64,000 nt of DNA from Atherinomorus stipes (Eukaryota; Chordata; Actinopteri; Atheriniformes; Atherinidae): assembly GCA_023101725.1 (NCBI GenBank), contig JALJCO010013399.1:115200-179199 (forward strand), written 5' to 3'. The translations under genes and the position numbers were made by a program. Positions 1 through 36,715 of the stretch are shown piece after piece. Within the stretch, counting starts at the first letter, position 1; each line of letters starts with the position of its first letter. The notes below the pieces were generated by a model. That model ran no database searches. It had not been told where the DNA came from and saw nothing but the letters and a program-made list of their open reading frames with translations.

Positions 1-184
1 TTTTCAGTCCAGTTCTTGTTTGGGTGCTTCACCTCTTCATTATAAGACCTATTTTTCTGCCCCTTGTCTAAAATGGAAGATCTAAAATAAATGAATATAT
101 TTAAAACTACAAGGCGGTATGCATAATTCTGGTCTCTGCACAAAGACGCGTTTGTTACTCTTGCTGTTACTCTTGTGTTTTTAG

Positions 185-400
185 TCAAGATAAGGAAATT
201 AGGGGTTGGATGTTATCCTTCCAGTTTTCAATAATGTGTTGGACAGTTCTGAATCCAGTTTTAGTAGTTTCTGCATCTCCTTGGATGTTCTCTCTGCTTG
301 ATGCTGCCAATGATTTGACCCTTCTCAGACAGACATCTTTTCCACGACCATGGATGTGTCTTTCCACATACTTGTTGAAGGAATGAGAAGCAAGTCATTG
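185..400 (-). pseudogene. Tc1-like transposase, N-terminal fragment (left arm)
   Basis: The minus-strand frame reads MERHIHGRGKD, KSLAASS and FRTVQHIIENWKDN, which resembles the helix-turn-helix start of teleost Tc1-like transposases (a K-H-GRGKDV start followed by RTVQRIIKNWK in intact relatives). Only the DNA-binding part remains; there is no DDE domain next to it. The matching right-arm fragment is at about 33776-33991. A C-terminal fragment of the same type lies at 36716-37269. Confidence 0.6.
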
Positions 401-587
401 CACCAGTTGGGGTTAAATAACTTGTTGCAGCTGAACGCTATTTGCACATGCAGTAATTATCCAATAGGAGGCTAGCTACCTATTTGCTTATTTAAATCCA
501 GGTAGCCACTTTTTGGGGGGCCAGACGATGTATGTAAAGCACTTAATGTTTCCCTTGGCATGAAAAGCGCTTGATAAATAAAGTTTG

Positions 588-973
588 TCATCATGTCAGT
601 CATTTTCTGTACCGCTTATCCAGTTCAGGGTCGCGGGGGTTGCTGGAGCCCATCCCAGCTGTTATCAGGCGAGAGGCGGGGTACACCCTGGACAGGTCGC
701 CAGTCTGTCGCAGGGCCAACACAGAGAGACAAACAACCATTCACACTCACATTCATTCCTAGGGGCAATTTGAGAGTGATCAATTAACCTAACATGCATG
801 TCTTTGGATGGTGGGGGGGGGAGGGCCCGAGAGCCCACGCATAACAGGGGAGAAAATAAAACCCCCCAGGAGGCCGGGGGCCCGGGGGGGACCCCAGGAA
901 TACAGGGGGGGAAAAGGAAACCCCCCCCAGGGAGGGCACAGTTGGAATTGTTCGAACCCCCTCCCCAGCCGGG
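588..973 (-). mobile_element. 5'-truncated SINE-like insertion, left arm only
   Basis: The reverse complement matches the body and tail of the full-length element at 40537-40942 but lacks its tRNA-like head, stopping at cccggctgggg. It is flanked by a perfect 12-bp target duplication, aaataaagtttg, at 576-587 and 974-985. The right arm (around 33590) has a single uninterrupted copy of that site, so the insertion is present in one arm only. Bases about 805-960 are full of G and C runs and contain a near-tandem duplication of roughly 45 bp compared with the other copy. Confidence 0.85.
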
Positions 974-1179
974 AAATAAAGTTTGATTTGATTAAATTTG
1001 ATTTGACATGTGAGAGTAGTACTATAGAAGTATCAGAATCAAGATATGTTACTGCGTCAGAGTAAATTCACCTGGAACACAGTAGAAAGTGTAAATGTTA
1101 TCTCCTCATAAAATAAAAACACATTACTTTAAGTGGAATCCAGAGAAAAGCAGCCCAGTTCATCTGGGAATGTGCAAAG

Positions 1180-2009
1180 CAGAGGTGTCAAACTCATTTT
1201 AGTTCAGGGGCCACATACGGCACAATTTCATCTCAAGTGGGCCGGACCGGGAAAATGATCAGACAATAACCTATAAATAACAATAACTGCAAATGTTTCC
1301 TTTTATTTTATTTCCTTTTATTTGTCAAGATGTTTATATTTAACGAACTTTCCTTTTAGAAAAAATGAACATGAAATTTATTGAGTAAGATGGATGGTTT
1401 CAACAATATTTTGCCTCATTTGTTTATATTTTTTCTTTATTCATTTTATGTATTAAAATCAGTCAACATTTTATTGTATATATGAAATTTATATTCATAT
1501 ATATTTTAATATAAACTCATATAAATATGAATTTATAAATTAATTTTCCCTCAAAACTTCTCAAATATTGAATATTTTTAATATATGAATTTTTATATTT
1601 CTACTTTTATCATTGTCATTATCAAGTCATTCAAATACAACACTACATGTTTATTGTAACTTTCAGATCACAATGGATGTACAAAATCACTTACTGTAAT
1701 ATTGAATCACAGGTATCTGGAACTAAAAAATACAGTATTTCACATTATGACTTTTTAAGAGAAATAATATTTCCTCATGTGTGAAGTAATCCAGACCTTA
1801 TGATATAAACCATGAGGTAAAATCTGTAAAGTATTATTGAAATACTTCATATTTAGATATTAAAAAGATTCCAAGCTCTGGTGGACCAATTAGAAACTAT
1901 AGCTTGTTTTATTGTTTTAAAAGTGACATTTTATAATTCACCTCGCGGGCCAGACTGGACCCTTTGGCGGGTGAGTTTTGGCCCCCGGGCCTTATGTTTG
2001 ACACCCCTG
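1180..2009. mobile_element. hAT-type MITE (left arm)
   Basis: This 830-bp AT-rich element has terminal inverted repeats CAGAGGTGTCAAAC and GTTTGACACCCCTG and is flanked by 8-bp direct repeats gtgcaaag and gtgtaaag (one mismatch), the target size of hAT transposons. No transposase is visible, so it is non-autonomous. Sub-terminal GC-rich blocks (gggccggaccgg, gggccagactgg) frame an AT-rich core. Confidence 0.8.
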
Positions 2010-2017
2010 GTGTAAAG

Positions 2018-3500
2018 TAATCATAGGAATGAGGAAAATCATCCCAGGGTTGTGTAAAGTATTTCCGGAAAGGATATGTTCCCTTTTAATTGTTGTGGTC
2101 TGAACTGTGTTTGGTTTGTATGCTGACACTTGGCAGAGTCGTTTAGCTGAGCTTCTCCTGTCATGTTGTCATGATGCATGTTAGCATTGATGCTACATGT
2201 TAGCACTGATGCTTCCTGTTGTCTGCAGATGTCTTCTGGACTGGGGGACTTCACACTGAATCCTGTACAGGGGTTAACCTAACCTGAGGTTTCCCCCATG
2301 GGGGGACGTTGAGAACAGGTGCCCGGCCAATCCAAATTGCCATTTTGGAGACATCTCGTGAACTATCTGTAGTTAAACCTCTAATCTGGTTGTGCTTTTG
2401 TTGATCAGACTTGTTCTTTGCAGAGATAATGTACCTGTATTGTTCTGTGGTCTGATGGCGTTTTAGAGCTACAGCTGCATCATTCCAGATTTTCCATCTT
2501 CATCATGTTTATTTTCTGTCATTTTGTTTTTATCTCTTTATCTTATCTTACTCTTTACCCTTTGTTTTTTGTTCATTGTTTTACTTTTGTTTGCTTTTTC
2601 CTGGAGCTGGAACCAATCCGATCCAATATTGATATTGGCCTCTGATTTTGACCCCAATCATGGATCTGATTTTGGCCTGAATTCCTTGATCCACCTCACC
2701 AATCCACAGAGGGACCTTTCAGGTCTGGTGTTTACAAAGTATAAGTATTATGCAGCTTTAAAGGCATATGCCACCTCTGGGAGAAATTTAGCCTACCCCC
2801 GCAGTCCCCTGAGGGGACCGACCCAGTCATTCTCTGCATCTGGCAGCACTGACTTTAGCTTAGCTTAGCATAGTTGCTGTAATCTGGCAGATCCAACAAG
2901 CACCACTTGGCGAAAGTGAACAAATTAACTTGAGATTTTTTTTCCAATTACTTTTTGTGACCTGCACATTCTGATCGAGTACAAACGAGAAGCTGATTTC
3001 ACATCAAAGGACTGACTAGGTGGCATTCAATAGGAGAACTGTATGTCGCGGAAGTACAGGCCAATCACAGGCGAAGCCCTGCGGATAGTAACAAAGGCAG
3101 CACGCATGTGCAGCATCCGGTGGTAACACTGTTTACAGAAGTTGGGGATGCTGCGTTTTCCACTGAATCTGCCCATGATAGAGCGCAATGTGAATTGAAA
3201 TTGTAATTTACAACAGGGGCAATCATTATTTATATGTGTTTGTAAATTTACACAGTCGAGAGCATGTGTAGAGTTTGTTAGTAGCCACGAACAGATTGGA
3301 GCTACTAAAATATTAATGAATGCCAGATTCATGTAAATTTACGTTTACTAACAGTTTACACAGAAATTCACTCTGCTCACGTTTCATGAATGAGACCCAG
3401 CGTGATGACATCACCCTTCACATCCTATTTCCTCCCATCATTAATTGGAATATATTTGGGTCATGAAACATAAAGAAGATGACAGCTTGCAATGTGGAAC
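2018..3500. other. Unassigned intron sequence (left arm)
   Basis: I see no exon or well-defined transposon here. There are modest open frames (for example 2524-2868 plus and 3027-3332 minus) without recognisable domains. Around 3050-3130 the sequence is richer in CpG and contains gcggaagt and ccaatca motifs, which could be a remnant of a promoter-bearing repeat. The right-arm equivalent is about 31084-32566. Confidence 0.4.
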
Positions 3501-3504
3501 AGCC

Positions 3505-4377
3505 AAGGTTTCCAGGTTTCAGGGGTCCAAGGTTTTAAGTGTCCAGCTGCCTGGGGTCCAGGGGTCTAAGGTAGGTTGACAGGGTTCCAGATTTCAGGGG
3601 TCCAGGGTTCTAGGTTTACAGGTTTCTAGGTTACAGGTTTCTAGGTTACAGGTTTCAGGCGTACAGGGTTGTAGTTTCTAGATTCCAGGTTTCAGGGGTG
3701 CAAGGCTCTAGGCTTATAGATTTCCAGGTTTCAGGTTTCCAGGGTTCTAGGTTTCCAGGTTTCTAGGTTTCCATTCTAGGTTTAAAGGTTTCGGGGGTCC
3801 AGGGTTCTAAGTTTACAGGTTTCTAGGTTACAGGTTTCAGAGGTACAGGGTTCTAGGTTTCTAGATTCCAGGTTTCAGGGGTCCAAGGCTCTAGGCTTAT
3901 AGGTTACAAGTTTCAGGTTTACAGGGTTCTAGGTTTACAGGTTTCTAGATTCCAGGTTTCAGGGGTCCAGGATTCTAGGTTTATAGATTCCAGGTTTACA
4001 GAGTTTTAGGTTTGCAGGTTTCAGGAGTCCAGGGTTCTAGGTTTACAGGTTTCTAGGTTCCAGGGTTCTAGGTTTCAAGTTTACAGGTTTCAGGGGTCCA
4101 GGGTTCTAGGTTTACAGGTTTCTAGGTTCCAGGGTTCTAGGTTTCAAGTTTACAGGTTTCAGGGGTCCAGGGTTCTAGGTTTACAGGTTTCTAGATTTCA
4201 GGGGTCCAGGGTTCTAGGTTTACAGGTTTATAGGTTTCAGGGGTCCAGGGTTCTAGGTTTACAGATTTCTAGGTTCCAGGTTGCAGGGGTCCAGGGTTCT
4301 AGGTTTACAGATTTCTAGGTTCCAGGTTTCAGGGGTCCAGGGTTCTAGGTTTACAGGTTTATAGGGTTATAAAGGGT
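3505..4377. repeat. Minisatellite A, short allele (left arm)
   Basis: About 0.87 kb of irregular tandem repeats is built from modules such as ggttctaggtttacagg, tttcaggggtccag and tttctaggttcc. Units vary in length because modules are shuffled. The right-arm counterpart is nearly three times longer. Confidence 0.9.
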
Positions 4378-5080
4378 TGTGCAATATTTTCCTGCCATCA
4401 GTCCAACGGTTTATGATCGCTGATGTATTCACAAAGGTGTGTGGGAAGTTCTCTGAATTTTCTGTCTTTTTTTTCAATGCCAACCGTGAAATGGCTTACT
4501 GGGGGAAAAAAACAAACTTTTAAACATAAATTATAAAGTAAAAGCCTAAAAAAAACTTCTTTTCATTATTGCCGACATACAGCATGTTGTGCACCTGCCA
4601 ACTCTCCTGCATGCTAGATGGTCCTCAGGTAGAAATACTTTAGATATGCTCTGATAATGGACTACAGGTTGCTATCATGCTAGGTCTTCTGCTGCTGCAG
4701 CCTGTCTGCTTCAAGGTTGTTGTTCATACTGATAATGCCATTTCACTGGTTGCCTTCTTTCTGACATACACTACAGTTTGCAATATGAAAAACAGCATCA
4801 ATTATATACATCAGTAGAAATTCATAACGAGCCAGCAAGAACTGGACTGATAATAAGTTAGACTCATGCTGACATTATCGAGAAACCAACTAAGGGTGTC
4901 GCCCTCCACGGAATCAGGGAGTCTGAGGGATCTCTATCGAAGGTCTCCTGGTCTGGAGAAATGAGTGGGGTCTTCTTCAGAACTGAAGCAGGACACAATG
5001 TCTGTGTCCACGGACATGATTTCATCTCTGTGGACACAAGATTCAGCAGTTGAAAATCTGTCATCTGAACTACTGAAATT
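4378..5080. other. Unassigned intron sequence (left arm)
   Basis: No exon, terminal repeat pair or RNA gene could be identified. A short minus-strand frame at 4864-5064 has no recognisable domain. The right-arm partner is about 27937-28638. Confidence 0.4.
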
Positions 5081-5083
5081 TAC

Positions 5084-5503
5084 ATGGTGTTGGTGCGTGC
5101 TCCGTCAAAAATAGAGCTGGTGTATAGATTTAGTGCAGTGGCGCGACATGACGAAGCGACGATGGACAGCTCACTCACTGCGGTGGGCTCGATGAAAGTC
5201 AAACCATTGACAACAACGAGAGTGATTCGGTGCGCATGGTGTAACACTGTTGCACTCACAGACCTGGTGTAAAGCCGGGCCAAGATTTTTGTGTTCATTT
5301 ACAGAAGAAGTAGTAAAAGTGGTATAAGGCAATTAGTGGAAAAGGGAAAGACTGAATCCCCAACAAAGGAACAATATGTGGCAGTTAATGAGGAAATCTA
5401 CAAAATGGAGACACTGAAACATAAACTTAGACTACAAGAGATTAAAATGGAAAATAAATGGAAAAAATGGACTTACTATAAAACACATACAAGGACTAGA
5501 TAA
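5084..5503 (+). other. Two small open frames of unknown origin (left arm)
   Basis: Frames at 5084-5272 (62 codons) and 5291-5503 (70 codons) lie close together on one strand. The second is lysine-rich and helical in character (KMETLKHKLRLQEIKMENKW), resembling the basic coiled-coil tails of transposon-derived proteins, but I cannot assign a family. They are probably a decayed mobile element within intron 1. The right arm carries near-identical frames at 27513-27936. Confidence 0.35.
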
Positions 5504-5600
5504 AATAATCATAATCCCTGGCACATTGTTTTCTTATGTCATGGAAATGTGTGGAAAAAGGTCGTCAGTAACCACCAATAGAGAAATCTTAGGGGAGGGG

Positions 5601-8328
5601 AGGCTTCAGATTCAGATGCTTCATGGTCAGATTCAGATGGTTCAGGGTCAGATTCAGATGATTCATGGTCAGATTCAGATGGTTTACGGTCAGATTCAGG
5701 TGGTTCAGGGTCAGATTCAGGTGGTTCAGGGTCAGATTCAGATGCTTCAGGGTCAGATTCAGATGGTTCATGGTCAGATTCAGATGGTTCAGGGTCAGAT
5801 TCAGATGGTTCAGGGTCAGATTCAGATGGTTCAGGGTCAGATTCAGATGGTTCATGGTCAGATTCAGATGATTCATGGTCAGATTCAGATGGTTCATGGT
5901 CAGATTCAGATGGTTCATGGTCAGATTCAGATGGTTCAGGGTCAGATTCAGATGATTCATGGTCAGATTCAGATGGTTCATGGTCAGATTCAGATGGTTC
6001 AGGGTCAGATTCAGATGGTTCAGGGTCAGATTCAGATGGTTCAGGGTCAGATTCAGATGGTTCATGGTCAGATTCAGATGGTTTACGGTCAGATTCAGGT
6101 GGTTCAGGGTCAGATTCAGGTGGTTCAGGGTCAGATTCAGATGGCTCAGGGTCAGATTCAGATGCTTCAGGGTCAGATTCAGAAACTTCAATGTCAGATT
6201 CAGATGATTCATGGTCAGATTCAGATGGTTCATGGTCAGATTCAGATGGCTCAGGGTCAGTTTCAGATGGTTCATGGTCAGATTCAGATGGTTCAGGGTC
6301 AGATTCAGATGGTTCATGGTCAGATTCAGATGGTTCAGGGTCAGATTCAGATGGTTCAGGGTCAGATTCAGATGGTTCAGGGTCAGATTCAGATGGTTCA
6401 GGGTCAGATTCAGATGGTTCATGGTCAGATTCAGATGGTTCAGGGTCAGATTCAGATGGTTCATGGTCAGATTCAGATGGTTCAGGGTCAGATTCAGATG
6501 GTTCATGGTCAGATTCAGATGGTTCAGGGTCAGATTCAGATGGTTCATGGTCAGATTCAGATGGTTCAGGGTCAGATTCAGATGGTTCATGGTCAGATTC
6601 AGATGGTTCAGGGTCAGATTCAGATGGTTTACGGTCAGTTTCAGGTGGTTCAGGGTCAGATTCAGATGCTTCAGGGTCAGATTCAGAAACTTCAATGTCA
6701 GATTCAGATGATTCATGGTCAGATTCAGATGGTTCATGGTCAGATTCAGATGGTTCAGGGTCAGATTCAGATGGTTTACGGTCAGTTTCAGGTGGTTCAG
6801 GGTCAGATTCAGGTGGTTCAGGGTCAGATTCAGAAGTTTCAGGGTCAGATTCAGAAACTTCAATGTCAGATTCAGATGATTCATGGTCAGATTCAGATGG
6901 TTCATGGTCAGATTCAGATGGTTCAGGGTCAGATTCAGATGGTTTACGGTTAGTTTCAGGTGGTTCATGGTCAGAATCAGATGCTTCAGGGTCAGATTCA
7001 GAAACTTCAATGTCAGATTCAGATGATTCATGGTCAGATTCAGATGGTTCATGGTCAGATTCAGATGGTTCGGGGTCAGATTCAGATGGTTTACGGTCAG
7101 TTTCAGGTGGTTCAGGGTCAGATTCAGGTGGTTCATGGTCAGATTCAGATGGTTCAGGGTCAGATTCAGATGGTTTACGATCAGTTTCAGGTGGTTCAGG
7201 GTCAGATTCAGATGCTTCAGGGTCAGATTCAGAAACTTCAATGTCAGATTCAGATGATTCATGGTCAGATTCAGATGGTTCATGGTCAGATTCAGATGGT
7301 TCAGGGTCAGATTCAGATGGTTTACGGTCAGTTTCAGGTGGTTCAGGGTCAGATTCAGGTGGTTCAGGGTCAGATTCAGAAGTTTCAGGGTCAGATTCAG
7401 GTGGTTCAGGGTCAGATTCAGATGGTTCATGGTCAGATTCAGATGGTTCAGGGTCAGATTCAGATGGTTTACGGTCAGATTCAGATGATTCATGGTCAGA
7501 TTCAGATGGTTCATGGTCAGATTCAGATGGTTCAGGGTCAGATTCAGATGGTTTACGGTCAGTTTCAGGTGGTTCAGGGTCAGATTCAGGTGGTTCAGGG
7601 TCAGATTCAGAAGTTTCAGGGTCAGATTCAGGTGGTTCAGGGTCAGATTCAGAAACTTCAATGTCAGATTCAGATGATTCATGGTCAGATTCAGATGGTT
7701 CATGGTCAGATTCAGATGGTTCGGGGTCAGATTCAGATGGTTTACGGTCAGTTTCAGGTGGTTCAGGGTCAGATTCAGGTGGTTCAGGGTCAGATTCAGA
7801 AGTTTCAGGGTCAGATTCAGGTGGTTCAGGGTCAGATTCAGAAGTTTCAGGGTCAGATTCAGATGGTTCAGGGTCAGATTCAGATGGTTTACGGTCAGAT
7901 TCAGATGGTTTACGGTCAGATTCAGGTGGTTCAGGGTCAGATTCAGATGGTTCAGGGTCAGATTCAGAAGTTTCAGGGTCAGATTCAGGTGGTTCAGGGT
8001 CAGATTCAGAAGTTTCAGGGTCAGATTCAGATGGTTCAGGGTCAGATTCAGATGGTTTACGGTCAGATTCAGGTGGTTCAGGGTCAGATTCAGAAGTTTC
8101 AGGGTCAGATTCAGATGGTTCAGGGTCAGATTCAGATGGTTTACGGTCAGATTCAGGTGGTTCAGGGTCAGATTCAGATGGTTCAGGGTCAGATTCAGAT
8201 GGTTTACGGTCAGATTCAGGTGGTTCAGGGTCAGATTCAGATGGTTCAGGGTCAGATTCAGATGCTTCAGGGTCAGATTCAGAAACTTCACGGTCAGATT
8301 CAGAAGTTTCAGGGTCAGGTTCAGATGT
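5601..8328. repeat. 21-bp minisatellite, long allele (left arm)
   Basis: Roughly 130 copies of a 21-bp unit fill 2.7 kb; one frame translates as repeated SDSDGSG with variants such as DGLRSVSG and ETSMSDSD. Because 21 is a multiple of three, several frames on both strands stay open for hundreds of codons. It lies in pde5a intron 1 sequence about 250 bp upstream of exon 2. Recurring multi-unit blocks (those with gaaacttcaatgtc) show higher-order amplification. It is not a gene. Confidence 0.95.
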
Positions 8329-8410
8329 GACAGGGCACCATGTTGTCCTCCATGGCTTAGAGTTTTGTCATACCAAGCTAGATCTTGGTTTTTATGTCAT
8401 GCACTCAGTA

Positions 8411-8545
8411 GGGCTGGATGATTGTGGAAAAAATTATAATCAGGATTATTTTGACTGATATTGAAATCACGATTAATATACACGATTATTCATTGGTTTT
8501 ATAAAAAGTGTTTATTGAACCACCAAAAAATTAATTGTCCAGCCC
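8411..8545. mobile_element. MITE with GGGCTGGA ends, internally deleted (left arm)
   Basis: Both ends carry the inverted motif GGGCTGGA...TCCAGCCC flanked by TA. Only 135 bp remain; the right-arm copy is 393 bp. The missing 258 bp are internal, so the deletion arose after insertion. The element ends 34 bp before the exon 2 acceptor. Confidence 0.7.
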
Positions 8546-8579
8546 TAGTACTCAGACACTTTCTTTTCTGTTTCAACAG

Positions 8580-9078
8580 GGAGATGGTGAATGCCTGGTT
8601 TGCTGAGCGAGTCCATACCATCCAATCATCTAAAGACACCTCTTCCCAGCAGAGGGCCTTCCAGTCCTCCACAGATCTCAGCCTCCCCTCAGGCTCCACC
8701 ATCCTGCCCCCCACACTGCTGGAGAACCGCTGCCCATCCCCAGCTTCAGTCCCCAGTCCAGCTCCTGGCACCCCTACTCGCAAAATCTCAGCATCAGAGT
8801 TCGACCGGCCACTCAGACCCATCGTGGTTAAAGACTCAGAGGGATCTCTGACATTTCTGAGTGACCGTGAAATCGTTCCTCTTCGGGGCTCGGTGATGGG
8901 TGAGGGTGGCAGCGGAAGTGGTAACGGAGGCAGTGGCGGCAGCAGCAGGGACCGTTGTGCAAGGCTACTGGAGCTGGTAAAGGATGTGTCGAGCCACCTG
9001 GATGTGACGGCGCTCTGCCATAAGATCTTCCTCCACATCAATGAGCTGATTGCTGCTGATCGCTACTCACTTTTTCTG
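8580..9078 (+). CDS. pde5a: PDE5A exon 2, inverted copy (left arm)
   Basis: This is a plus-strand copy of the 499-bp pde5a exon 2, encoding [14 protein letters not shown], the RKIS phosphorylation-site block and the start of GAF-A. Reading frame and both splice sites (tttcaacag and CTG|gtagga) are intact. It differs from the minus-strand copy by a single base giving Thr instead of Ser in the Ser/Pro linker. Relative to the native gene it is antisense, and no plus-strand exon 1 is visible upstream in the window. It cannot make PDE5 unless a promoter and exon 1 lie left of base 1, and its own downstream exons are missing because the palindrome centre follows exon 3. It is either a very recent duplicated fragment or a second haplotype joined in reverse. 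Confidence 0.9.
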
Positions 9079-9104
9079 GTAGGAAGTTCTGGTAGAATTT
9101 CACC

Positions 9105-10665
9105 TTTTATCCGAGCTCCTGGAATGTATGTCCTCCATCATAAACTGGCTGTTCTCAAACTACCTTCAAATTAATTCAAGTAAAACAGAAACATTGATCA
9201 TTGCTCCTGAAAAAAAAAGATCCCCCTGATCAAGAACCACCTTGGTGCTCTGGGCTCGTCTATCCAAGCTAGCCTTAGGAACCTTGGTGTGGTGTTTGAC
9301 CAGGTGGGAGGGTCATTCCCGACAGCTGACCAAAAGCTGCTTTTATCATCTAAGAACTGTCTTAAAAGTCAGGAAAATGTCGTCAAGGGCAGAACTTGAA
9401 ATCATCATTCATGCTTCTATCTCATCTCGTATTGATTATTGCAATTATGTTTTTACTTTTTTTTAATAAGAGGACACTCAAAAGACTCCAGTTAGTCCAG
9501 AATTCTTCTGCTGGACTTTTATCAGGTTCACCCAGAACGGTCCACATCACCCCTATTCTGTCTAATCTTCAGCTCCCAGTTAAAGGATAACTTTCTTTCT
9601 TTCCAACCTGGACCTTATTTCTAGAAGTATATACGTGCATTTACTTACCGGTAAAGTTTCTCCATCGCTTTGAGTCCTTTGGAAGATATTACGTTGAGTT
9701 GCCCTTCGGTGTGTGTCCAGAAAAATGGGGTAGTCACTATATAAGACATTATCTGCAGCAAAACACCTTGATTTTCACCAATACTTTAATCAGAATGAAC
9801 GAACAAAGGAGTACTATTGTCCCTTGAGTCCAGATTTTGGTTTCCGTTATTTATCAGGGTGTTCTTCACACTTTTCGGGGCCGTGAGTTCACGATGTGCG
9901 CTTCCTTAGTACAGCTGAGGGGAGCAGCTCACTACCCAGACAACAACAAAAACACAATCTGAGAAACTCAGAACTCACAGGTCAATAGTGCTCATTCGTT
10001 CATTCATTCTACTTAAAGCATTGATGAAATGAAGAAGTTTTACTGCAGATAAGGTCTTATATAGTAGCTGCCCCGTCTCCGCTATGATACTGGACGTCCT
10101 CAAAGGGCAACTTAACAAAATATCTTCCGAAGGACTCAAAGTGATGCAGAAACTTTACCGGTGAGTAAATGCACGTATGAACTCCTAGAAATAAGGTCAG
10201 GTTAAAAAAAAGAAAGTTATCCTTTAAATTTCGAATTGATTTTAAAATCTTAACCTTGACCTTCCAGGCGCTGCATGGCCCCCGATATATTATTGATCTG
10301 CTGTGTCCTATACACTTAAGGGCGCACCCTTCGTTCCTCAGGCCAGAGTCTCCTGAAGGTCGTTTTAAAGGACTCGTTTTAAAACTCATGGGGACCTGGC
10401 TTTTGAGACTGTAGCCCCCTAGATTCTGGAATGACCTCCCCCGTCCCTCCATCTGGTCGACTGTGTGGAATCCTTTAAAAAGCAGCTGAAAACGTATTTA
10501 TTTAGGAAAGCTTTTGGTTAATTTGATTATGATTGACTGGGTTTGATCATTTTATTTCTGTTTGCTATTATTTTTTTCCTTTTAATATGTTAATTATGTC
10601 TTTTTGTTGTACCAGTTTTTTTTTTTTTTAATCTGTGAAAAGCGCTTTATAAATTAATTTTACTT
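9105..10665 (+). mobile_element. L2-like LINE 3' end, split by a foldback MITE (left arm)
   Basis: Frames at 9105-9579 read [17 protein letters not shown] then LRNLGVVFDQ and FISSRIDYCN, the C-terminal part of an L2/Rex1-type reverse transcriptase. After the MITE at 9580-10227 the coding remnant resumes (FQALHGPRYI, RFWNDLP, KTYLFRKAFG) and ends in a tail with gcgctttataaat, typical of L2-like 3' ends. Stops and frameshifts make it dead. The 5' end is truncated, beginning within about 35 bp of the exon 2 donor. Confidence 0.75.
9580..10227. mobile_element. Foldback MITE with TTAA target (left arm)
   Basis: TTAA is duplicated at both ends, followed by inverted termini AGGATAACTTTCTTTC. The inverted similarity extends well over 100 bp inward from each side (ccttatttctag, gtgcatttactta, aaagtttctgcatc, aagatatt), so the element can form a long hairpin. 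A TTAA target fits piggyBac- or Kolobok-type mobilisation; no transposase is present. Confidence 0.75.
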
Positions 10666-10669
10666 CCTT

Positions 10670-11655
10670 GCTTACTTACTAGGGATGAACAGGCTGTGTC
10701 TGCGTAACTGTATGTTTAAACTGGAGCTCTGCCATCACCACAACAAGAGGAAGGAAGACATGATCATACCTCTTTACTCTGGCAGCATGAAACCCTCTTA
10801 TTTTAACTGGTCGCACCACCAAACACCATATTCTCAGGAATGAGTGGTTAGATGGTGAATGACTTGGTTTTATGCACTTATTTGAAACATAAACATTTTC
10901 TCAGATTTTCATGTAACAGAGAGGGAAGTCATTTTTGTAAAGTCCTACTGAAACCACAAGCTCTCTTTTCTACCACTGCTGGTCCTCAGATTTCAACATG
11001 GAAGATAAATTGGATTCATTTGTTTGCTTTGGTGAAACTGAACGAAGACTTGCTGACTCTCCTCCCCCAGTAAGCTTATTTACTGTCTGGTGATGTGTGG
11101 TGATTTTCTTCCACTATCGTTCTTTGTGAAAAATGAAACAATCTTATCTGAACTAGTGAACACACGATCTGAAAGACCCTGGTCATAAAGAAAGACTGAG
11201 TGTGTGAATGTCCTGCCCCAAGTCCGGTCTGACCTCAAAAATACAAACTTAGTATTTATAAAGCCACTTCATAGCAGCGAGGTGCGTTTGTTTGTTTTAC
11301 CTGCACTAACAGCAAAGATGTTCCAACTTGAGTCAATCTTTGAAGTTGGTTTATGACCAAGTAGCTTCAGCGGAAAATGAGCCTCATACTTTAGCAAACA
11401 AAGTGTTTGAGTCAGTGTTAGCTGATAGATAACGGCACAAACAGTATGATTGTCCACACAGACCACGTTTACCAGTGTCAACTGAGAAATATAAGCTTAT
11501 ATAAGGCAAATCCTCCCATGCTGAAAAATATTAGTAGAAACAAAGCATTTATTTCCATGCTAGCTAAGGAGATTTATGTCCATGCTAGCCAAGGAGATTA
11601 GCAAAAACAAAACACATTGATTGGTGCTAGCTGACTAATATTAGCAAATGTAAGT
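10670..11655. other. Unassigned intron 2 sequence (left arm)
   Basis: No coding signal or element boundary was found. Around 11560-11640 the motif tgctagc with tattagc recurs, as in many fish repeats, without clear ends. The right-arm partner is about 22634-23635. Confidence 0.4.
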
Positions 11656-11657
11656 CT

Positions 11658-12328: not shown

Positions 12329-12434
12329 CTTGTCCATGCTGATGAATATTGGCAAAGCAAAAGCAGATATGTCTGTGATGACAAATTTTAGCTATGATGG
12401 TACATACATAAAGAGTAAACCTGCTAAATATTAG

Positions 12435-13617: not shown

Positions 13618-13639
13618 GTCATACCTTAGCTCCATTTCT

Positions 13640-14030: not shown

Positions 14031-14032
14031 GA

Positions 14033-21855: not shown

Positions 21856-21962
21856 CTAATATTTAGCAGGTTTACTCTTTATGTATGTACCATCATAGCT
21901 AAAATTTGTCATCACAGACATATCTGCTTTTCCTTTGCCAATATTCATCAGCATGGACAAGT

Positions 21963-22633: not shown

Positions 22634-23635
22634 AGACTTACATTTGCTAATATTAGTCAGCTAGCACCAATCAATGTGTTTTGTTTTTGCTAATCTCCTT
22701 GGCTAGCATGGACATAAATCTCCTTAGCTAGCATGGAAATAAATGCTTTGTTTCTACTAATATTTTTCAGCATGGGAGGATTTGCCTTATATAAGCTTAT
22801 ATTTCTCAGTTGACACTGGTAAACGTGGTCTGTGTGGACAATCATACTGTTTGTGCCGTTATCTATCAGCTAACACTGACTCAAACACTTTGTTTGCTAA
22901 AGTATGAGGCTCATTTTCCGCTGAAGCTACTTGGTCATAAACCAACTTCAAAGATTGACTCAAGTTGGAACATCTTTGCTGTTAGTGCAGGTAAAACAAA
23001 CAAACGCACCTCGCTGCTATGAAGTGGCTTTATAAATACTAAGTTTGTATTTTTGAGGTCAGACCGGACTTGGGGCAGGACATTCACACACTCAGTCTTT
23101 CTTTATGACCAGGGTCTTTCAGATCGTGTGTTCACTAGTTCAGATACGATTGTTTCATTTTTCACAAAGAACGATAGTGGAAGAAAATCACCACACATCA
23201 CCAGACAGTAAATAAGCTTACTGGGGCAGGAGAGTCAGCAAGTCTTCGTTCAGTTTCACCAAAGCAAACAAATGAATCCAATTTATCTTCCATGTTGAAA
23301 TCTGAGGACCAGCAGTGGTAGAAAAGACAGCTTGTGGTTTCAGTAGGACTTTACAAAAATGACTTCCCTCTCTGTTACATGAAAATCTGAGAAAATGTTT
23401 ATGTTTCAAATAAGTGCATAAAACCACGTCATTCACCATCTAACCACTCATTCGTGAGAATATGGTGTTTGGTGGTGCGACCAGTTAAAATAAGAGGTTT
23501 CATGCTGCCAGAGTAAAGAGGCATGATCATGTCTTCCTTCCTCTTGTGGTGGTGATGGCAAAGCTCCAGTTTAAACATACAGTTACGCAGACACAGCCTG
23601 TTCATCCCTAGTAAGTAAGCAAGGAAGTAAAATTG
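22634..23635. other. Unassigned intron 2 sequence (right arm)
   Basis: This is the partner of 10670-11655. The small frames at 22810-23022 and 23218-23439 have no recognisable domain. Confidence 0.4.
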
Positions 23636-23639
23636 ATTT

Positions 23640-25195
23640 ATAAAGCGCTTTTCACAGATTAAAAAAAAAAACTGGTACAACAAAATGACATAATTAACAT
23701 ACTAAAAGGAAAAAAATAATAGCAAACAGAAATAAAATGATCAAACCCAGTCAATCATAATCAAATCAACCAAAAGCTTTCCTAAATAAATACGTCTTCA
23801 GCTGCTTTTTAAAGGATTCCACACAGTCGACCAGATGGAGGGACGGGGGAGGTCATTCCAGAATCTAGGGGGCTACAGTCTCAAAAGCCAGGTCCCCATG
23901 AGTTTTAAAACCAGTCCTTTAAAACGACCTTCAGGAGACTCTGGCCTGAGGAACGAAGGGTGCGCCCTTAAGTGTATAGGACACAGCAGATCAATAATAA
24001 ACCGGGGGGCCATGCAGCGCCTGGAAGGTCAAGATTTAGATTTTAAAAATCAATTCGAAATTTAAAGGATAACTTTCTTTTTTTTTAACCTGGACCTTAT
24101 TTCTAGGAGTTCATACGTGCATTTACTCACACGTAAAGTTTCTGCATCACTTTGAGTCCTTCGGAAGATATTTTGTTAAGTTGCCCTTTGAGGACGTCCA
24201 GTATCATAGCGGAGACGGGGCAGCTACTATATAAGACATTATCTGCAGTAAAACTTCTTCATTTCATCAATGCTTTAAGTAGAATGAATGAACGAATGAG
24301 CACTATTGTCCTGTGAGTTCTGAGTTTCTCAGATTGTGTTTTTGTTGTTGTCTGGGTAGTGAGCTGCTCCCCTCAGCTGTACTAAGGAAGCGCACATCGT
24401 GAACTCACGGCCCCGAAAAGTGTGAAGAACACCCTGATAAATAACGGAAACCAAAATCTGGACTCAAGGGACAATAGTACTCCTTTGTTCGTTCATTCTG
24501 ATTAAAGTATTGGTGAAAATCAAGGTGTTTTGCTGCAGATAATGTCTTATATAGTGACTACCCCATTTTTCTGAACACACACCGAAGGGCAACTCAACGT
24601 AATATCTTCCAAAGGACTCAAAGCGATGGAGAAACTTTACCGGTAAGTGAATGCACGTATATACTTCTAGAAATAAGGTCCAGGTTGGAAAGAAAGAAAG
24701 TTATCCTTTAACTGGGAGCTGAAGATTAGACAGAATAGGGGTGATGTGGACCGTTCTGGGTGAACCTGATAAAAGTCCAGCAGAAGAATTCTGGACTAAC
24801 TGGAGTCTTTTGAGTGTCTTCTTATTAAAAAAAGTAAAAACATAATTGCATTAATCAATACGAGATGAGATAAAAGCATGAATGATGATTTCAAATTCTG
24901 CCCTTGACGACATTTTCCTGACTTTTAAGACAGTTCTTAGATGATAAAAGCAGCTTTTGGTCAGCTGTCGGGAATGACCCTCCCACCTGGTCAAACACCA
25001 CACCAAGGTTCCTAAGGCTAGCTTGGATAGACGAGCCCAGAGCACCAAGGTGGTTCTTGATCAGGGGGATCTTTTTTTCAGGAGCAATGATCAATGTTTC
25101 TGTTTTACTTGAATTAATTTGAAGGTAGTTTGAGAACAGCCAGTTTATGATGGAGGACACACATTCCAGGAGCTCGGATAAAAGGTGAAATTCTA
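23640..25195 (-). mobile_element. L2-like LINE 3' end, split by a foldback MITE (right arm)
   Basis: This is the partner of 9105-10665. The frame at 24891-25160 reads [15 protein letters not shown] and NLGVVFDQ more cleanly than on the left. The tail lies near 23640-23720 and the MITE occupies 24062-24711. Confidence 0.75.
24062..24711. mobile_element. Foldback MITE with TTAA target (right arm)
   Basis: This is the partner of 9580-10227 with the same TTAA flanks and long inverted termini, 650 bp. It interrupts the LINE fragment at the same point as in the left arm, so the insertion predates the arm duplication. Confidence 0.75.
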
Positions 25196-25209
25196 CCAGA
25201 ACTTCCTAC

Positions 25210-25708
25210 CAGAAAAAGTGAGTAGCGATCAGCAGCAATCAGCTCATTGATGTGGAGGAAGATCTTATGGCAGAGCGCCGTCACATCCAGGTGGCTCGAC
25301 ACATCCTTTACCAGCTCCAGTAGCCTTGCACAACGGTCCCTGCTGCTGCCGCCACTGCCTCCGTTACCACTTCCGCTGCCACCCTCACCCATCACCGAGC
25401 CCCGAAGAGGAACGATTTCACGGTCACTCAGAAATGTCAGAGATCCCTCTGAGTCTTTAACCACGATGGGTCTGAGTGGCCGGTCGAACTCTGATGCTGA
25501 GATTTTGCGAGTAGGGGTGCCAGGAGCTGGACTGGGGACTGAAGCTGGGGATGGGCAGCGGTTCTCCAGCAGTGTGGGGGGCAGGATGGTGGAGCCTGAG
25601 GGGAGGCTGAGATCTGTGGAGGACTGGAAGGCCCTCTGCTGGGAAGAGCTGTCTTTAGATGATTGGATGGTATGGACTCGCTCAGCAAACCAGGCATTCA
25701 CCATCTCC
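25210..25708 (-). CDS. pde5a: PDE5A exon 2 (native orientation, right arm)
   Basis: This 499-bp exon encodes residues following exon 1: [14 protein letters not shown], a Ser/Pro-rich linker, the block [20 protein letters not shown], a Gly/Ser-rich linker, and the start of GAF-A ([20 protein letters not shown] through ADRYSLFL). RKIS contains the serine known in mammalian PDE5A to be phosphorylated by cGMP-dependent protein kinase, which raises cGMP affinity. The acceptor is tttcaacag and the donor CTG|gtagga. Compared with the human protein as I recall it, both linkers are longer or different. A MITE ends 34 bp before the acceptor and a LINE fragment begins within about 35 bp of the donor, so the exon is closely hemmed in by repeats. 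The left-arm copy differs at one base (Ser here, Thr there in the linker). Confidence 0.93.
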
Positions 25709-25742
25709 CTGTTGAAACAGAAAAGAAAGTGTCTGAGTACTA

Positions 25743-26135
25743 GGGCTGGACAATTAATCGAATTTTAATCGTGATTTCAATTTTGCCTTTTCACAATCAA
25801 AAACACTGCAATCGAAGAAAATCGATTAATCCTGAAGTGAACAGACTGGTGGAGTTACAGGAAGCAAACTGCAGGGAGTATAGAACAGGAATGCATGGAG
25901 ACTGAATATCCATTTTTATTGCTATTATTATTTGAAATAATATTCTTATTTTACTCTGACTCCTTTACTTGTTTTTAATTTATTTCCAGTTTCATCTCTT
26001 TTTAAAGTTATATCTGGAGTTGGTGGTTCAATAAACACTTTTTATAAAACCAATGAATAATCGTGTATATTAATCGTGATTTCAATATCAGTCAAAATAA
26101 TCCTGATTATAATTTTTTCCACAATCATCCAGCCC
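25743..26135. mobile_element. MITE with GGGCTGGA ends, full length (right arm)
   Basis: This 393-bp copy has ends gggctggacaatt and atcatccagccc flanked by TA. It is AT-rich, with no open frame of note. It sits immediately upstream, in gene sense, of the native exon 2 acceptor, whose polypyrimidine tract starts just beyond it. Confidence 0.7.
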
Positions 26136-26215
26136 TACTGAGTGCATGACATAAAAACCAAGATCTAGCTTGGTATGACAAAACTCTAAGCCATGGAGGA
26201 CGATATGGTGCCCTG

Positions 26216-27412
26216 TCACATCTGAACCTGACCCTGAAACTTCTGAATCTGACATTGAAGTTTCTGATCTGACCCTGAAGCATCTGAATCTGACCCTGAA
26301 CCATCTGAATCTGACCCTGAACCATCTGAATATGACCCTGAACCATCTGGATCTGACCCTGAACCATCTGAATCTGACCATGAACCATCTGAATATGACC
26401 CTGAACCATCTGAATATGACCCTGAACCATCTGGATCTGACCATGAACCATCTGGGTCTGACCCTGAACCATCTGAATCTGACATTGAAGTTTCTGATCT
26501 GACCCTGAACCATCTGAATCTGACCATGAACCATCTGAATATGACCCTGAACCATCTGGATCTGACCCTGAACCATCTGAATCTGACCATGAACCATCTG
26601 AATATGACCCTGAACCATCTGAATATGACCCTGAACCATCTGGATCTGACCATGAACCATCTGGGTCTGACCCTGAACCATCTGAATCTGACATTGAAGT
26701 TTCTGATCTGACCCTGAACCATCTGAATCTGACCCTGAACCATCTGAATCTGACCATGAACCATCTGAATATGACCCTGAACCATCTGGATCTGACCCTG
26801 AACCATCTGAATCTGACCCTGAAGCATCTGAATCTGACCATGAACCATCTGAATATGACCCTGAACCATCTGGATCTGACCCTGAACCATCTGAATCTGA
26901 CCCTGAACCATCTGAATCTGACATTGAAGTTTCTGATCTGACCATGAACCATCTGAATATGACCCTGAACCATCTGGATTGCCGCATCTGACCCTGAACC
27001 ATCTGGATCTGACCCTGAACCATCTGGATCTGACCATGAACCATCTGGGTCTGACCCTGAAGCATCTGAATCTGACCCTGAAACATCTGAATCTGACATT
27101 GAAGTTTCTGAATCTGACCCTGAACCATCTGAATATGACCCTGAACCATCTGAATCTGACCCTGAACCATCTGAATCTGACCCTGAACCATCTGGATCTG
27201 ACCATGAACCATCTGAATCTGACATTAAAGTTTCTGAATCTGACATTGAAGTTTCTGAATCTGACCCTGAACCATCTGAATCTGACCCTGAACCATCTGA
27301 ATCTGACCCTGAACCATCTGAATCTGACCATGAAGCATCTGAATATGACCCTGAAGCATCTGAATCTGACCTTAAAGTTTCTGAATATGACCCTGAAGCA
27401 TCTTAATCTGAA
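26216..27412. repeat. 21-bp minisatellite, short allele (right arm)
   Basis: About 57 copies of the same 21-bp unit, 1.2 kb, in the reverse orientation. Sequence variants differ from the left arm (tctgaatatgaccctga and tctggatctgacc are common here), so the two arrays have evolved or rearranged separately. Some 18-bp units occur where gttctgatctgacc lacks three bases. Confidence 0.95.
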
Positions 27413-27512
27413 GCCTCCCCTCCCTAAGATTTCTCTATTAGTGGTTACTGACGATCTTTTTCCACACATTTCCATGACATAAGAAAACAATGTGCCAGGG
27501 ATTATGATTATT

Positions 27513-27936
27513 TTATCTAGTCCTTGTATGCGTTTTATAGTAAGTCCATTTTTTCCATTTATTTTCCATTTTAATCTCTTGTAGTCTAAGTTTATGTTTC
27601 AGTGTCTCCATTTTGTAGATTTCCTCATTAACTGCCACATATTGTTCCTTTGTTGGGGATTCAGTCTTTCCCTTTTCCACTAATTGCCTTATACCACTTT
27701 TATTATTTCTTCTGTAAATGAACACAAAAATCTTGGCCCGGCTTTACACCAGGTCTGTGAGTGCAACAGTGTTACACCATGCGCACCGAATCACGCTCGT
27801 TGTTGTCAATGGTTTGACTTCCATCGAGCCCACCGCAGTGAGTGAGCGGTCCATCGTCGCTTCGTCATGTCGCGCCACTGCACTAAATCTATGCGCCAGC
27901 TCTATTTTTGATGGAGCACGCACCAACACCATGTAA
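27513..27936 (-). other. Two small open frames of unknown origin (right arm)
   Basis: This is the partner of 5084-5503. The lysine-rich frame is at 27513-27725 and the other at 27744-27932. Few residues differ between arms, as expected from the overall arm similarity. Preservation is therefore not evidence of function. Confidence 0.35.
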
Positions 27937-28638
27937 ATTTCAGTAGTTCAGATGACAGATTTTTAACTGCTGAATCTTGTGTCCACAGAGATGAAATCAT
28001 GTCCGTGGACACAGACATCGTGTCCTGCTTGAAGTTCTGAAGAAGACCCCACTCATTTCTCCAGACCAGGAGACCTTCGATAGAGATCCCTCAGACTCCC
28101 TGATTCCGTGGAGGGCGACACCCTTAGTTGGTTTCTCGATAATGTCAGCATGAGTCTAACTTATTATCAGTCCAGTTCTTGCTGGCTCGTTATGAATTTC
28201 TACTGATGTATATAAATGATGCTGTTTATCATATTGCAAACTGTAGTGTATGTCAGAAAGAAGGCAACCAGTGAAATGGCATTATCAGTATGAACAACAA
28301 CCTTGAAGCAGACAGGCTGCAGCAGCAGAAGACCTAGCATGATAGCAACCTGTAGTCCATTGTCAGAGCATATCTAAAGTATTTCTACCTGAGGACCATC
28401 TAGCATGCAGGAGAGTTGGCAGGTGCACAACATGCTGTATGTCGGCAATAATGAAAAGAAGTTTTTTTTAGGCTTTTACTTTATAATTTATGCTTAAAAG
28501 TTTGTTTTTTTCCCCAGTAAGCCATTTCACGGTTGGCATTGAAAAAAAAGACAGAAAATTCAGAGAACTTCCCACACACCTTTGTGAATACATCAGCGAT
28601 CCTAAACCGTTGGACTGATGGCAGGAAAATATTGCACA

Positions 28639-31083
28639 ACCCTTTATAACCCTATAAACCTGTAAACCTAGAACCCTGGACCCCTGCAACCTGAAATCTA
28701 GAAATCTGTAAACCTAGAACCCTGGACCCCTGCAACCTGGAACCTAGAAATCTGTAAACCTAGAACCCTGGACCCCTGAAACCTATAAACCTGTAAACCT
28801 AGAACCCTGGACCCCTGAAATCTAGAAACCTGTAAACCTAGAACCCTGGACTCCTGAAACCTGCAAACCTAGAACTCTGTAAACCTGGAATCTATAAACC
28901 TAGAATCCTGGACCCCTGAAACCTGGAACCTAGAAACCTGTAAACCTAGAACCCTGTAAACCTGAAACTTGTAACCTATAAGCCTAGAGCCTTGGACCCC
29001 CTGAAACCTGTAATCTAGAAACCTAGAACCCTGTACCTCTGAAACCTGTAATCTAGAAACCTGTAAACTTAGAACCCTGGACCCCCGAAACCTTTAAACC
29101 TAGAATGGAAACCTAGAAACCTGTAAACCTAGAACCCTGGACTCCTGAAACCTGCAAACCTAGAACTCTGTAAACCTGGAATCTATAAACCTAGAATCCT
29201 AGACCCCCTGAAACCTGGAACCTAGAAACCTGTAAACCTAGAACCCTGTAAACCTGAAACTTGTAACCTATAAGCCTAGAGCCTTGGACCCCTGAAACCT
29301 GGAATCTAGAAACCTAGAACCCTGTACCTCTGAAACCTGTAACCTAGAAACCTGTAAACTTAGAACCCTGGACCCCCGAAACCTTTAAACCTAGAATGGA
29401 AACCTGAAACCTGGAAACCTATAAGCCTAGAGCCTTGCACCCCTGAAACCTGGAATCTATAAACCTGTAAACCTAGAACCCTGTAAACCTGAAACTTGTA
29501 ACCTATAAGCCTAGAGCCTTGGACCCCTGAAACCTGGAATCTAGAAACTACAACCCTGGACGCCTGAAACCTGTAACCTAGAAACCCGTAAACGTAGAAC
29601 CCTGGATCCCTGAAACCTGGAATCTAGAAACCTGGAAACTTAGAACCTTGGACCCCCGAAACCTTTAAACCTAGAATGGAAACCTGAAACCTGGAAACCT
29701 ATAAGCCTAGAGCCTTGCACCCCTGAAACCTGGAATCTAGAAACTACAATCCTGTACGCCTGAAACCTGGAACCTAGAAATCTGTAAACCTAGAACCCTG
29801 GACCCCTGAAATCTAGAAACCTGTAAACATAGAACCCTGACCCCTGAAACCTGGAACCTAGAAATCTGTAAACCTAGAACCCTGGACCCCTGAAATCTAG
29901 AAACCTGTAAACCTAGAACCCTGTACCCCTGAAACCTGTAAACTTGAAACCTAGAACCCTGGACCCCTGGAACCTAGAAACCTGTAAACCTAGAACCCTG
30001 GACTCCTGAAACCTGTAAACCTAGAACTCTGTAAACCTGGAATCTATAAACCTGTAAACCTAGAACCCTGTAAACCTGAAACTTGTAACCTATAAGCCTT
30101 GGACCCCTGAAACCTGGAATCTAGAAACTACAACCCTGTACCTCTGAAACCTGTAACCTAGAAACCCGTAAACGTAGAACCCTGGATCCCTGAAACCTGC
30201 AAACCTAGAACTCTGTAAACCTGGAATCTATAAACCTAGAATCCTAGACCCCTGAAACCTGGAACCTAGAAACCTGTAAACCTAGAACCCTGGACTCCTG
30301 AAACCTGCAAACCTAGAACTCTGTAAACCTGGAATCTATAAACCTAGAATCCTAGACCCCTGAAACCTGGAACCTAGAAACCTGTAAACCTAGAAACCTG
30401 TAAACCTAGAACCCTGTAAACCTGAAACTTGTAACCTATAAGCCTAGAGCCTTGGACCCCTGAAACCTGGAATCTAGAAACCTAGAACCCTGTACCTCTG
30501 AAACCTGTAACCTAGAAACCTGTAAACTTAGAACCCTGGACCCCCGAAACCTTTAAACCTAGAATGGAAACCTGAAACCTGGAAACCTATAAGCCTAGAG
30601 CCTTGCACCCCTGAAACCTGGAATCTATAAACCTGTAAACCTAGAACCCTGTAAACCTGAAACTTGTAACCTATAAGCCTAGAGCCTTGGACCCCTGAAA
30701 CCTGGAATCTAGAAACTACAACCCTGGACGCCTGAAACCTGTAACCTAGAAACCCGTAAACGTAGAACCCTGGATCCCTGAAACCTGGAATCTAGAAACC
30801 TGGAAACTTAGAACCCTGGACCCCCGAAACCTTTAAACCTAGAATGGAAACCTAGAACCCTGGAAACCTGAAACCTGTAACCTATAAGCCTAGAGCCTTG
30901 CACCCCTGAAACCTGGAATCTGGAAACTACAACCCTGTACGCCTGAAACCTGCAACCTAGAAACCTGTAAACCTAGAACCCTGGACCCCTGAAATCTGGA
31001 ACCCTGTCAACCTACCTTAGACCCCTGGACCCCAGGCAGCTGGACACTTAAAACCCTGGACCCCTGAAATCTGGAAACCTTGG
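28639..31083. repeat. Minisatellite A, long allele (right arm)
   Basis: About 2.4 kb of the same modules in reverse complement (aacctgtaaacctagaac, cctggacccctgaaa). Longer blocks that include cttggaccc and aatggaaacct recur, so there is higher-order structure absent or reduced in the left arm. Confidence 0.9.
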
Positions 31084-32566
31084 CTGTTCCACATTTCAAG
31101 CCGTCATCTTCTTTATGTTTCATGACCCAAATATATTCCAATTAATGATGGGAGGAAATAGGATGTGAAGGGTGATGTCATCACGCTGGGTCTCATTCAT
31201 GAAACGTGAGCAGAGTGAATTTCTGTGTAAACTGTTAGTAAACGTAAATTTACATGAATCTGGCATTCATTAATATTTTAGTAGCTCCAATCTGTTCGTG
31301 GCTACTAACAAACTCTACACATGCTCTCGACTGTGTAAATTTACAAACACATAAATAATGATTGCCCCTGTTGTAAATTACAATTTCAATTCACATTGCG
31401 CTCTATCATGGGCAGATTCAGTGGAAAACGCAGCATCCCCAACTTCTGTAAACAGTGTTACCACCGGATGCTGCACATGCGTGCTGCCTTTGTTACTATC
31501 CGCAGTGCTTCGCCTGTGATTGGCCTGTACTTCCGCGACATACAGTTGTCCCATTGAATGCCACCTAGTCTGTCCTTTGATGTGAAATCAGCTTCTCGTT
31601 TGTACTCGATCAGAATGTGCGGGTCACAAAAAGTAATTGGAAAAAATCTCAAGTTAATTTGTTCACTTTCGCCAAGTGGTGCTTGTCAGATCCGCCAGAT
31701 TACAGCAACTATGCTAAGCTAAGCTAAAGTCAGTGCTGCCAGATTCAGAGAATGACTGGGTCGGTCCCCTCAGGGGACTGCGGGGGGAGGCTAAATTTCT
31801 CCCAGAGGTGGCATATGCCTTTAAAGCTGCATAATACTTATACTTTGTAAACACCAGACCTGAAAGGTCCCTCTGTGGATTGGTGAGATGGATCAAGGAA
31901 TTCAGGCCAAAATCAGATCCATGATTGGGGTCAAAATCAGAGGCCAATATCAATATTGGATCGGATTGGTTCCAGCTCCAGGAAAAAGCAAACAAAAGTA
32001 AAACAATGAACAAAAAACAAAGGGTAAAGAGTAAGATAAAATAAAGAGATAAAAACAAAATGACAGAAAAATAAACATGATGAAGATGGAAAATCTGGAA
32101 TGATGCAGCTGTAGCTCTAAAACGCCATCAGACCACAGAACAATACAGGTACATTATCTCTGCAAAGAACAAGTCTGATCAACAAAAGCACAACCAGATT
32201 AGAGGTTTAACTACAGATAGTTCACGAGATGTCTCCAAAATGGCAATTTGGATTGGCCGGGCACCTGTTCTCAACGTCCCCCCATGGGGGGAAACCTCAG
32301 GTTAGGTTAACCCCTGTACAGGATTCAGTGTGAAGTCCCCCAGTCCAGAAGACATCTGCAGACAACAGGAAGCATCAGTGCTAACATGTAGCATCAATGC
32401 TAACATGCATCATGACAACATGACAGGAGAAGCTCAGTTAAACGACTCTGCCAAGCGTCAGCATACAAACCAAACACAGTTCAGACCACAACAATTAAAA
32501 GGGAACATATCCTTTCCGGAAATACTTTACACAACCCTGGGATGATTTTCCTCATTCCTATGATTA
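31084..32566. other. Unassigned intron sequence (right arm)
   Basis: This is the partner of 2018-3500. No gene is supported. The open frames are short and shared with the left arm simply because the arms are near-identical. Confidence 0.4.
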
Positions 32567-32574
32567 CTTTACAC

Positions 32575-33401
32575 CAGGGGTGTCAAACATAAGGCCCGGG
32601 GGCCAAAACTCACCCGCCAAAGGGTCCAGTCTGGTCCGCGAGGTGAATTATAAAATGTCACTTTTAAAACAATAAAACAAGTTATAGTTTCTAATTTGTC
32701 CACCAGAGCTTGGAATCTTTTTAATATCTAAATATGAAGTATTTCAATAATACTTTACAGATTTGACCTCATAGTTTATATTATGAGGTCAGGAATACTT
32801 CACACATGAGGAAATATTATTTCTCTTAAAAAGTCATAATGTGAAATACTGTATTTTTTAGTTCCAGATACCTGTGATTCAATATTACAGTAAGTGATTT
32901 TGTACATCCATTGTGATCTGAAAGTTACAATAAACATGTAGTGTTGTATTTGAATGACTTGATAATGACAATGATAAAAGTAGAAATATAAAAATTCATA
33001 TATTAAAAATATTCAATATTTGAGAAGTTTTGAGGGAAAATTAATTTATAAATTCATATTTATATGAGTTTATATTAAAATATATATGAATATAAATTTC
33101 ATATATACAATAAAATGTTGACTGATTTTAATACATAAAATGAATAAAGAAAAAAATATAAACAAATGAGGCAAAATATTGTTGAAACCATCCATCTTAC
33201 TCAATAAATTTCATGTTCATTTTTTCTAAAAGGAAAGTTCGTTAAATATAAACATCTTGACAAATAAAAGGAAATAAAATAAAAGGAAACATTTGCAGTT
33301 ATTGTTATTTATAGGTTATTGATCATTTTGCCGGTCCGGCCCACTTGAGATGAAATTGTGCCGTATGTGGCCCCTGAACTAAAATGAGTTTGACACCTCT
33401 T
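32575..33401. mobile_element. hAT-type MITE (right arm)
   Basis: This is the palindrome partner of 1180-2009, with the same terminal repeats and 8-bp flanks ctttacac and ctttgcac. Small substitutions separate the two. No coding capacity was seen. Confidence 0.8.
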
Positions 33402-33775
33402 CTTTGCACATTCCCAGATGAACTGCGCTGCTTTTCTCTGGATTCCACTTAAAGTAATGTGTTTTTATTTTATGAGGAGATAACATTTACACTCTCTACT
33501 GTGTTCCAGGTGAATTTACTCTGACGCAGTAACATATCTTGATTCTGATACTTCTATACTACTCTCACATGTCAAATCAAATTTAATCAAATCAAACTTT
33601 ATTTATCAATCGCTTTTCATGCCAAGGGCAACATTAAGTGCTTTACATACATCGTCTGGCCCCCAAAAAGTGGCTACCTGGATTTAAATAAGCAAATAGG
33701 TAGCTAGCCTCCGATTGGATAATTACTGCATGTGCAAATATCGTTCAGCTGCAACAAGTTATTTAACCCCAACTG

Positions 33776-33991
33776 GTGCAATGACTTGCTTCTCATTCCT
33801 TCAACAAGTATGTGGAAAGACACATCCGTGGTGGTGGAAAAGATGTCTGTCTGAGAAGGGTCAAATCATTGGCATCAAGAGGTGAAAACATCTAAGGAGA
33901 TGCAGAAACTACTAAAACTGGATTCAGAGCTGTCCAACACATTATTGAAAACTGGAAGGATAACATCCAACCCCTAATTTCCTTATCTTGA
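33776..33991 (+). pseudogene. Tc1-like transposase, N-terminal fragment (right arm)
   Basis: This is the palindrome partner of the fragment at 185-400, on the plus strand. It shows the same helix-turn-helix-like coding remnant with small frame-breaking gaps. It ends where, in an intact element, the linker to the catalytic domain would follow. Confidence 0.6.
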
Positions 33992-34175
33992 CTAAAAACA
34001 CGAGAGTAACAGCAAGAGTAACAAACGCGTCTTTGTGCAGAGACCAGAATTATGCATACCGCCTTGTAGTTGTAAATATATTCATTTATTTTAGATCTTC
34101 CATTTTAGACAAGGGGCAGAAAAATAGGTCTTATAATGAAGAGGTGAAGCACCCAAACAAGAACTGAACTGAAAA

Positions 34176-36100: not shown

Positions 36101-36114
36101 GTGAAAGCTGTGTC

Positions 36115-36712: not shown

Positions 36713-36715
36713 CCT

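Follow-up and report, generated by a model that had tools for sequence, protein, structure and literature searches.

Judged from its sequence, the large palindrome in the window (the terminal 64,000 bases of the 179,199-bp contig C7028) is very probably a false assembly join of two pde5a alleles and would not be a structure of the living animal. A preliminary description had offered two readings, a false join of two haplotypes or an inverted duplication kept similar by gene conversion. An insertion that is split between two contigs, together with an empty insertion site in one arm, supports the first of these and speaks against the second.

Extent and divergence of the two arms

Self-alignment reproduced the inverted pairing of window positions 1-16,710 with 17,037-34,175 that had been described previously, and indicated that the earlier estimate of arms of at least 16.7 kb was too low. 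When the 115,199 bases of the contig to the left of the window were added, a check that the preliminary description had itself recommended, the pairing extended to window position 64,000, the last base of the contig, and the left arm was found to start at C7028:85,459. In the alignment of the whole contig, window positions 17,037-64,000 mirror C7028:85,459-131,909, and each arm is 47 kb long. No N was found in contig C7028, the join included. The right end of the contig is a run of A, where the match between the arms is still high; this run belongs to the poly-A tail of another member of the repeat family found at the palindrome's center (Table 1). Assemblies commonly break in such poly-A or repeat-bearing places.

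The arms had been called near-identical, which holds for part of their length. Several 1-kb bins differ at only 0-0.1% of bases, and some are identical; in selected non-satellite blocks the difference is 1.2-1.9%, with many indels. In non-satellite blocks, which were chosen by the analyst and count about 230 bp at 60.1-60.3 kb twice, 573 of 30,772 aligned bases differ, accompanied by 147 gap events; across 18,077-60,107 the difference is 309/26,269 (1.2%). The 1-kb bins from 18 to 59 kb range from 0 to 2.7%, apart from a single bin at the edge of a satellite (5.4% over 296 bases), and the difference climbs to 11% over the final 4 kb. Insertions specific to one arm include those of 77, 258, 398 and 608 bp, and the satellite arrays are unequal in length between arms. 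Identical bins are also what gene conversion between real arms would give.

Palindromes can be produced when one molecule is read forward and then back, as a hairpin or amplification chimera, and, in the part of the literature consulted, PacBio data are reported to contain false palindromes about as long as a raw read, 7-17 kbp (PMC9516828). The arms described here are 47 kb each, do not carry the same insertions, differ by 1.2-1.9% with large insertions besides, and have the empty site on one side only; the differences contradict an origin from one molecule. We consider a fold-back of this kind extremely unlikely, and the presence of the empty site in only one arm was the reason for discarding it.

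Several other features of the arms were recorded. The 608-bp insertion (17481-18088), present in the right arm only, adjoins the intronic repeat that we term E; it has no convincing target duplicate, and no match to it was found elsewhere within the window. A 21-bp satellite is present in about 130 copies in the left arm (5606-8327) and 57 copies in the right arm (26219-27411), and its long open frames on both strands look like repeat artefacts. Two large minisatellite arrays lie at 45310-50205 and 50579-53647, and their long open frames, which occur in several reading frames, are spurious. Broken pieces of Tc1/mariner-like transposase are located at 37198-38454 (-) and 56155-56544 (+). When seven open frames were compared with Pfam, three contained Tc1/mariner-like relics and four, including two exon pieces, had no match; the transposase pieces matched DDE_3 and HTH_23 under the cut-off, and HTH_Tnp_Tc3_2 over it.

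The number of copies of two segments was examined in the complete assembly (1.18 Gb in 7,656 contigs). A 2.1-kb intronic piece of the arm had two full copies, both in C7028, among the 40 candidates scored of 6,576. The sequence just to the left of the palindrome (C7028:82,001-85,600) had one full copy, among 40 candidates scored of 15,857. This single copy indicates that the two haplotypes are not both retained throughout the assembly.

Distribution of pde5a exons over contigs

Each arm had been reported to contain two coding exons, and these are exons 2 and 3 of PDE5A. A tblastn search, with the human protein as the query, placed exon 1 in each arm as well, and pde5a exons 1-3 lie in order in both arms, directed toward the center. 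With the same query, at E values up to 1, exons beyond 3 were not found on C7028. The search of the whole genome with human PDE5A returned 51 matches, and 52 of 104 candidates were scored. Among those scored, contig C7591 bears PDE5A residues 247-849, corresponding to exon 4 onwards, and a second set of later exons, from human residue 543 on, is located on contig C1555; the two contigs are 99.1% identical over 1,162 bp at the single place compared. Contig C7591 is 110,451 bp long and carries exon 4 at 99,964-100,116 on the minus strand, about 10 kb from the contig end that faces exon 3.

In exons 2 and 3 the arms differ at 3 of 676 bases, compared with 139 of 7,520 in nearby non-coding sequence (one-sided P 0.002), as expected for two working alleles. 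Our inference is that each arm represents one of the two alleles in a single diploid animal. Since they are matched as alleles by sequence similarity alone, the right arm might instead be a diverged paralogous segment, a segmental duplication from elsewhere that was misjoined here. This is very unlikely, given that two sets of exons 1-3, and two of the later exons starting at human residue 543, were found with allele-like identity, as would be the case for one diploid gene, and that the remaining PDE matches in the same search were far weaker.

A split insertion and its empty site

The 326 bp at the center of the palindrome had been described as a spacer, and this length does not form one unit, being composed of a 292-bp piece from a repeated element (16,712-17,003) and 33 bp of right-arm sequence (17,004-17,036). 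The 292-bp segment was matched at 98-99% in 39 places besides the window (40 scored of 7,190 first-look candidates). In seven copies that were fetched, the edge of the repeat family coincides with the element's left edge at 16,712, and the repeat extends beyond the equivalent of 17,003. A full copy on contig C2413 (locus L038:2078-4981) is about 2.9 kb long and has a poly-A end. The repeat is GC-rich, and its fetched copies are 95-98% identical to one another; inspection by eye recognised no protein in the open frames of the full copy, and a search of locus L038 against Rfam gave no match at gathering thresholds. This young, apparently non-coding repeat may be a non-autonomous retroposon.

The end of C7591 that faces exon 3 consists of this same repeat, in the same gene orientation. 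The last 267 bases of the contig match window positions 16,737-17,003 at 98.5% and continue into the rest of the element, the contig starting 25 bases within the repeat, at the equivalent of 16,737. The stop of the element on C7591 was predicted from the full copy, and 1,000 bases were read there. Past the element's poly-A come TATTGGCATATC and, next, the missing part of repeat E, which is interrupted by the element in the left arm. The bases AAAATATTGGCATATC, directly before the element in the left arm, are also found at the end of its poly-A on C7591 (16 bases common to both, or 12 without the A run). This shared target duplicate and the remainder of repeat E indicate that the two flanks of one insertion are on two contigs. 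Because the left arm and C7591 flank a single insertion, they are likely neighbors in the real genome, and they likely belong to one allele.

An uninterrupted site was predicted by joining the two flanks, and it was found in the right arm, with 90 of 92 bases identical. To the right of the insertion, the right arm and C7591 are 97.9% identical over 48 bp. The 25 best hits also include eight further E copies from the contig, at 82-91% over 44-52 bp, and one hit that reaches 96% over 25 bp. The right arm probably represents the second allele, which has no insertion.

Table 1. Positions of features in the window (contig C7028), with one feature outside it
Feature	Position	Strand	Remarks
Left arm (probable insertion-bearing allele), part in window	1..16711	+	arm starts at C7028:85,459, 29.7 kb left of the window
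398-bp insertion, left arm only	588..985	+	12-base target duplicate (read by eye)
PDE5A exon 1, left copy	C7028:95,997-96,074		outside the window
PDE5A exon 2, left copy	8557..9093	+	match range, splice ends not refined
PDE5A exon 3, left copy	13438..13617	+	match range
Repeat E, intron 3, left copy	16283..16711	+	interrupted at 16,711 by the element
Left target-site copy, AAAATATTGGCATATC	16696..16711	+	same bases end the element's poly-A on C7591
First 292 bp of the ~2.9-kb poly-A-tailed high-copy repeat	16712..17003	+	remainder on C7591
Likely false join	17003..17004	.	suggested by the split insertion and the empty site
Right arm (probable allele without the insertion)	17004..64000	-	reaches the contig end
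Empty insertion site	17004..17095	-	90/92 bases as in the joined insertion flanks
Repeat E, right copy	17037..17473	-	32/421 aligned bases differ from the left copy
PDE5A exon 3, right copy	20820..20999	-	match range
PDE5A exon 2, right copy	25195..25731	-	match range
PDE5A exon 1, right copy	53805..53882	-	match range
Second copy of the element's repeat family	62626..64000	+	in both arms; contig ends in its poly-A tail

In a false join, contig C7028 would follow one pde5a allele into the poly-A-tailed repeat inserted in intron 3 and, from within the repeat, would turn back along the insertion-free allele. At 17,003/17,004, the join would then connect position 292 of the element with that allele in reverse orientation, and would fall 33 bp beyond the point where the match between the two alleles stops. 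It is best accounted for by a read that was chimeric or by an assembly graph that was wrongly traversed at the high-copy repeat. The corrected order would run from exons 1-3 in the left arm through repeat E and the 2.9-kb element to C7591, with exon 4 onwards, leaving the right arm as the parallel haplotype. Some observations count against a false join: the contig is gapless at the join, there is one full copy (among the candidates scored) of the sequence to the left of the palindrome, the divergence of repeat E is far above that of the arms, and some 1-kb bins are identical.

Repeat E (16283-16711, 17004-17473 and 34901-35643) is itself nearly palindromic, with 81% self-complementarity over about 285 bp, and has many copies in contig C7028. 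Its two copies beside the join differ by 7.6%, versus 1.2-1.9% for the arms. Most of the changes look private to the right arm (40 versus 7). We considered whether poor consensus at the join could serve as proof of a false join, and dropped this argument because the three controls were mixed, one being balanced (4 versus 7), one leaning the opposite way (2 versus 9), and one leaning the same way (34 versus 8, with 47 undecided).

The older appearance of the central repeat E relative to the arms is like that of a seeding inverted repeat, and we gave serious weight to a real inverted duplication, in which fold-back repaired a break in intron 3, with inverted repeat E as its possible site, and the arms have since diverged by 1-2%. 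The continuity of the contig, which has no N, and the one full copy just left of the palindrome (among the candidates scored) are also consistent with such an event. This explanation was dropped once the insertion was found to be split over two contigs, because the presence of the second flank and the next exon on C7591 would require a third copy of exons 1-3, whereas the 2.1-kb intron piece was found in the two arms only (among the candidates scored), and because the right arm contains the empty site. We now regard a real inverted duplication as improbable; a true palindrome with a collapsed third copy next to it is formally conceivable. Little probability is also assigned to the idea that one haplotype carries a tail-to-tail fusion of pde5a alleles, formed by a crossover inside the heterozygous retroposon and located beside an intact copy. 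If that were true, one haplotype would have only a converging pair of pde5a 5' ends.

The preferred reading, a false join of two alleles, has a practical consequence, in that pde5a should not be counted as duplicated or truncated in this genome. Structures of this type can be tested without reads, since a false join is very likely when the second flank of the central insertion and its target duplicate are on another contig and the empty site is opposite.

Comparison with known palindromes and false duplications

Vertebrate assemblies commonly suffer from false heterotype duplications, as stated in the portions of two reports consulted (PMC8081667, PMC9516828). In those cases, as is likely in the palindrome described here, alleles are kept as paralogues, parts of genes are doubled, the gene is broken, and the copies may be on one scaffold. 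The filled and empty sites and the doubled set of later exons suggest that here, too, two alleles of one locus are present in one haploid assembly. The cases described in these portions have a gap between the copies (PMC8081667, PMC9516828), whereas the copies in C7028 are in inverted order and meet, with no intervening N, within a repeat that one allele alone carries. Such a gap is presented as typical of heterotype copies, and not as required (PMC9516828).

Palindromes of sex chromosomes, which undergo gene conversion, resemble the present structure in having large inverted arms, gene parts and a short spacer, as far as the account consulted describes them (PMC8981503). Their arms are more than 99% identical (PMC8981503), in contrast to the 98-99% identity found here, with large indels, insertions that the arms do not share, and an empty site in one arm.

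Palindromes composed of alleles were reported in the 2013 assembly of Adineta vaga, 23 of them on recount, and, in the excerpts available from the two reports, there was one in a later A. vaga assembly and none in A. ricciae (PMC5916493, PMC7749112). A survey, in the part consulted, noted that scaffolding can yield false palindromes (PMC7953838). Allele palindromes in assemblies have been taken as biology, bdelloid rotifers being one example in these sources. The A. vaga palindromes are like the one described here in that homologous copies are on one scaffold in mirror order; other authors saw in them evidence of an ameiotic mode of life, whereas the center of the palindrome in C7028 can be traced to a split insertion.
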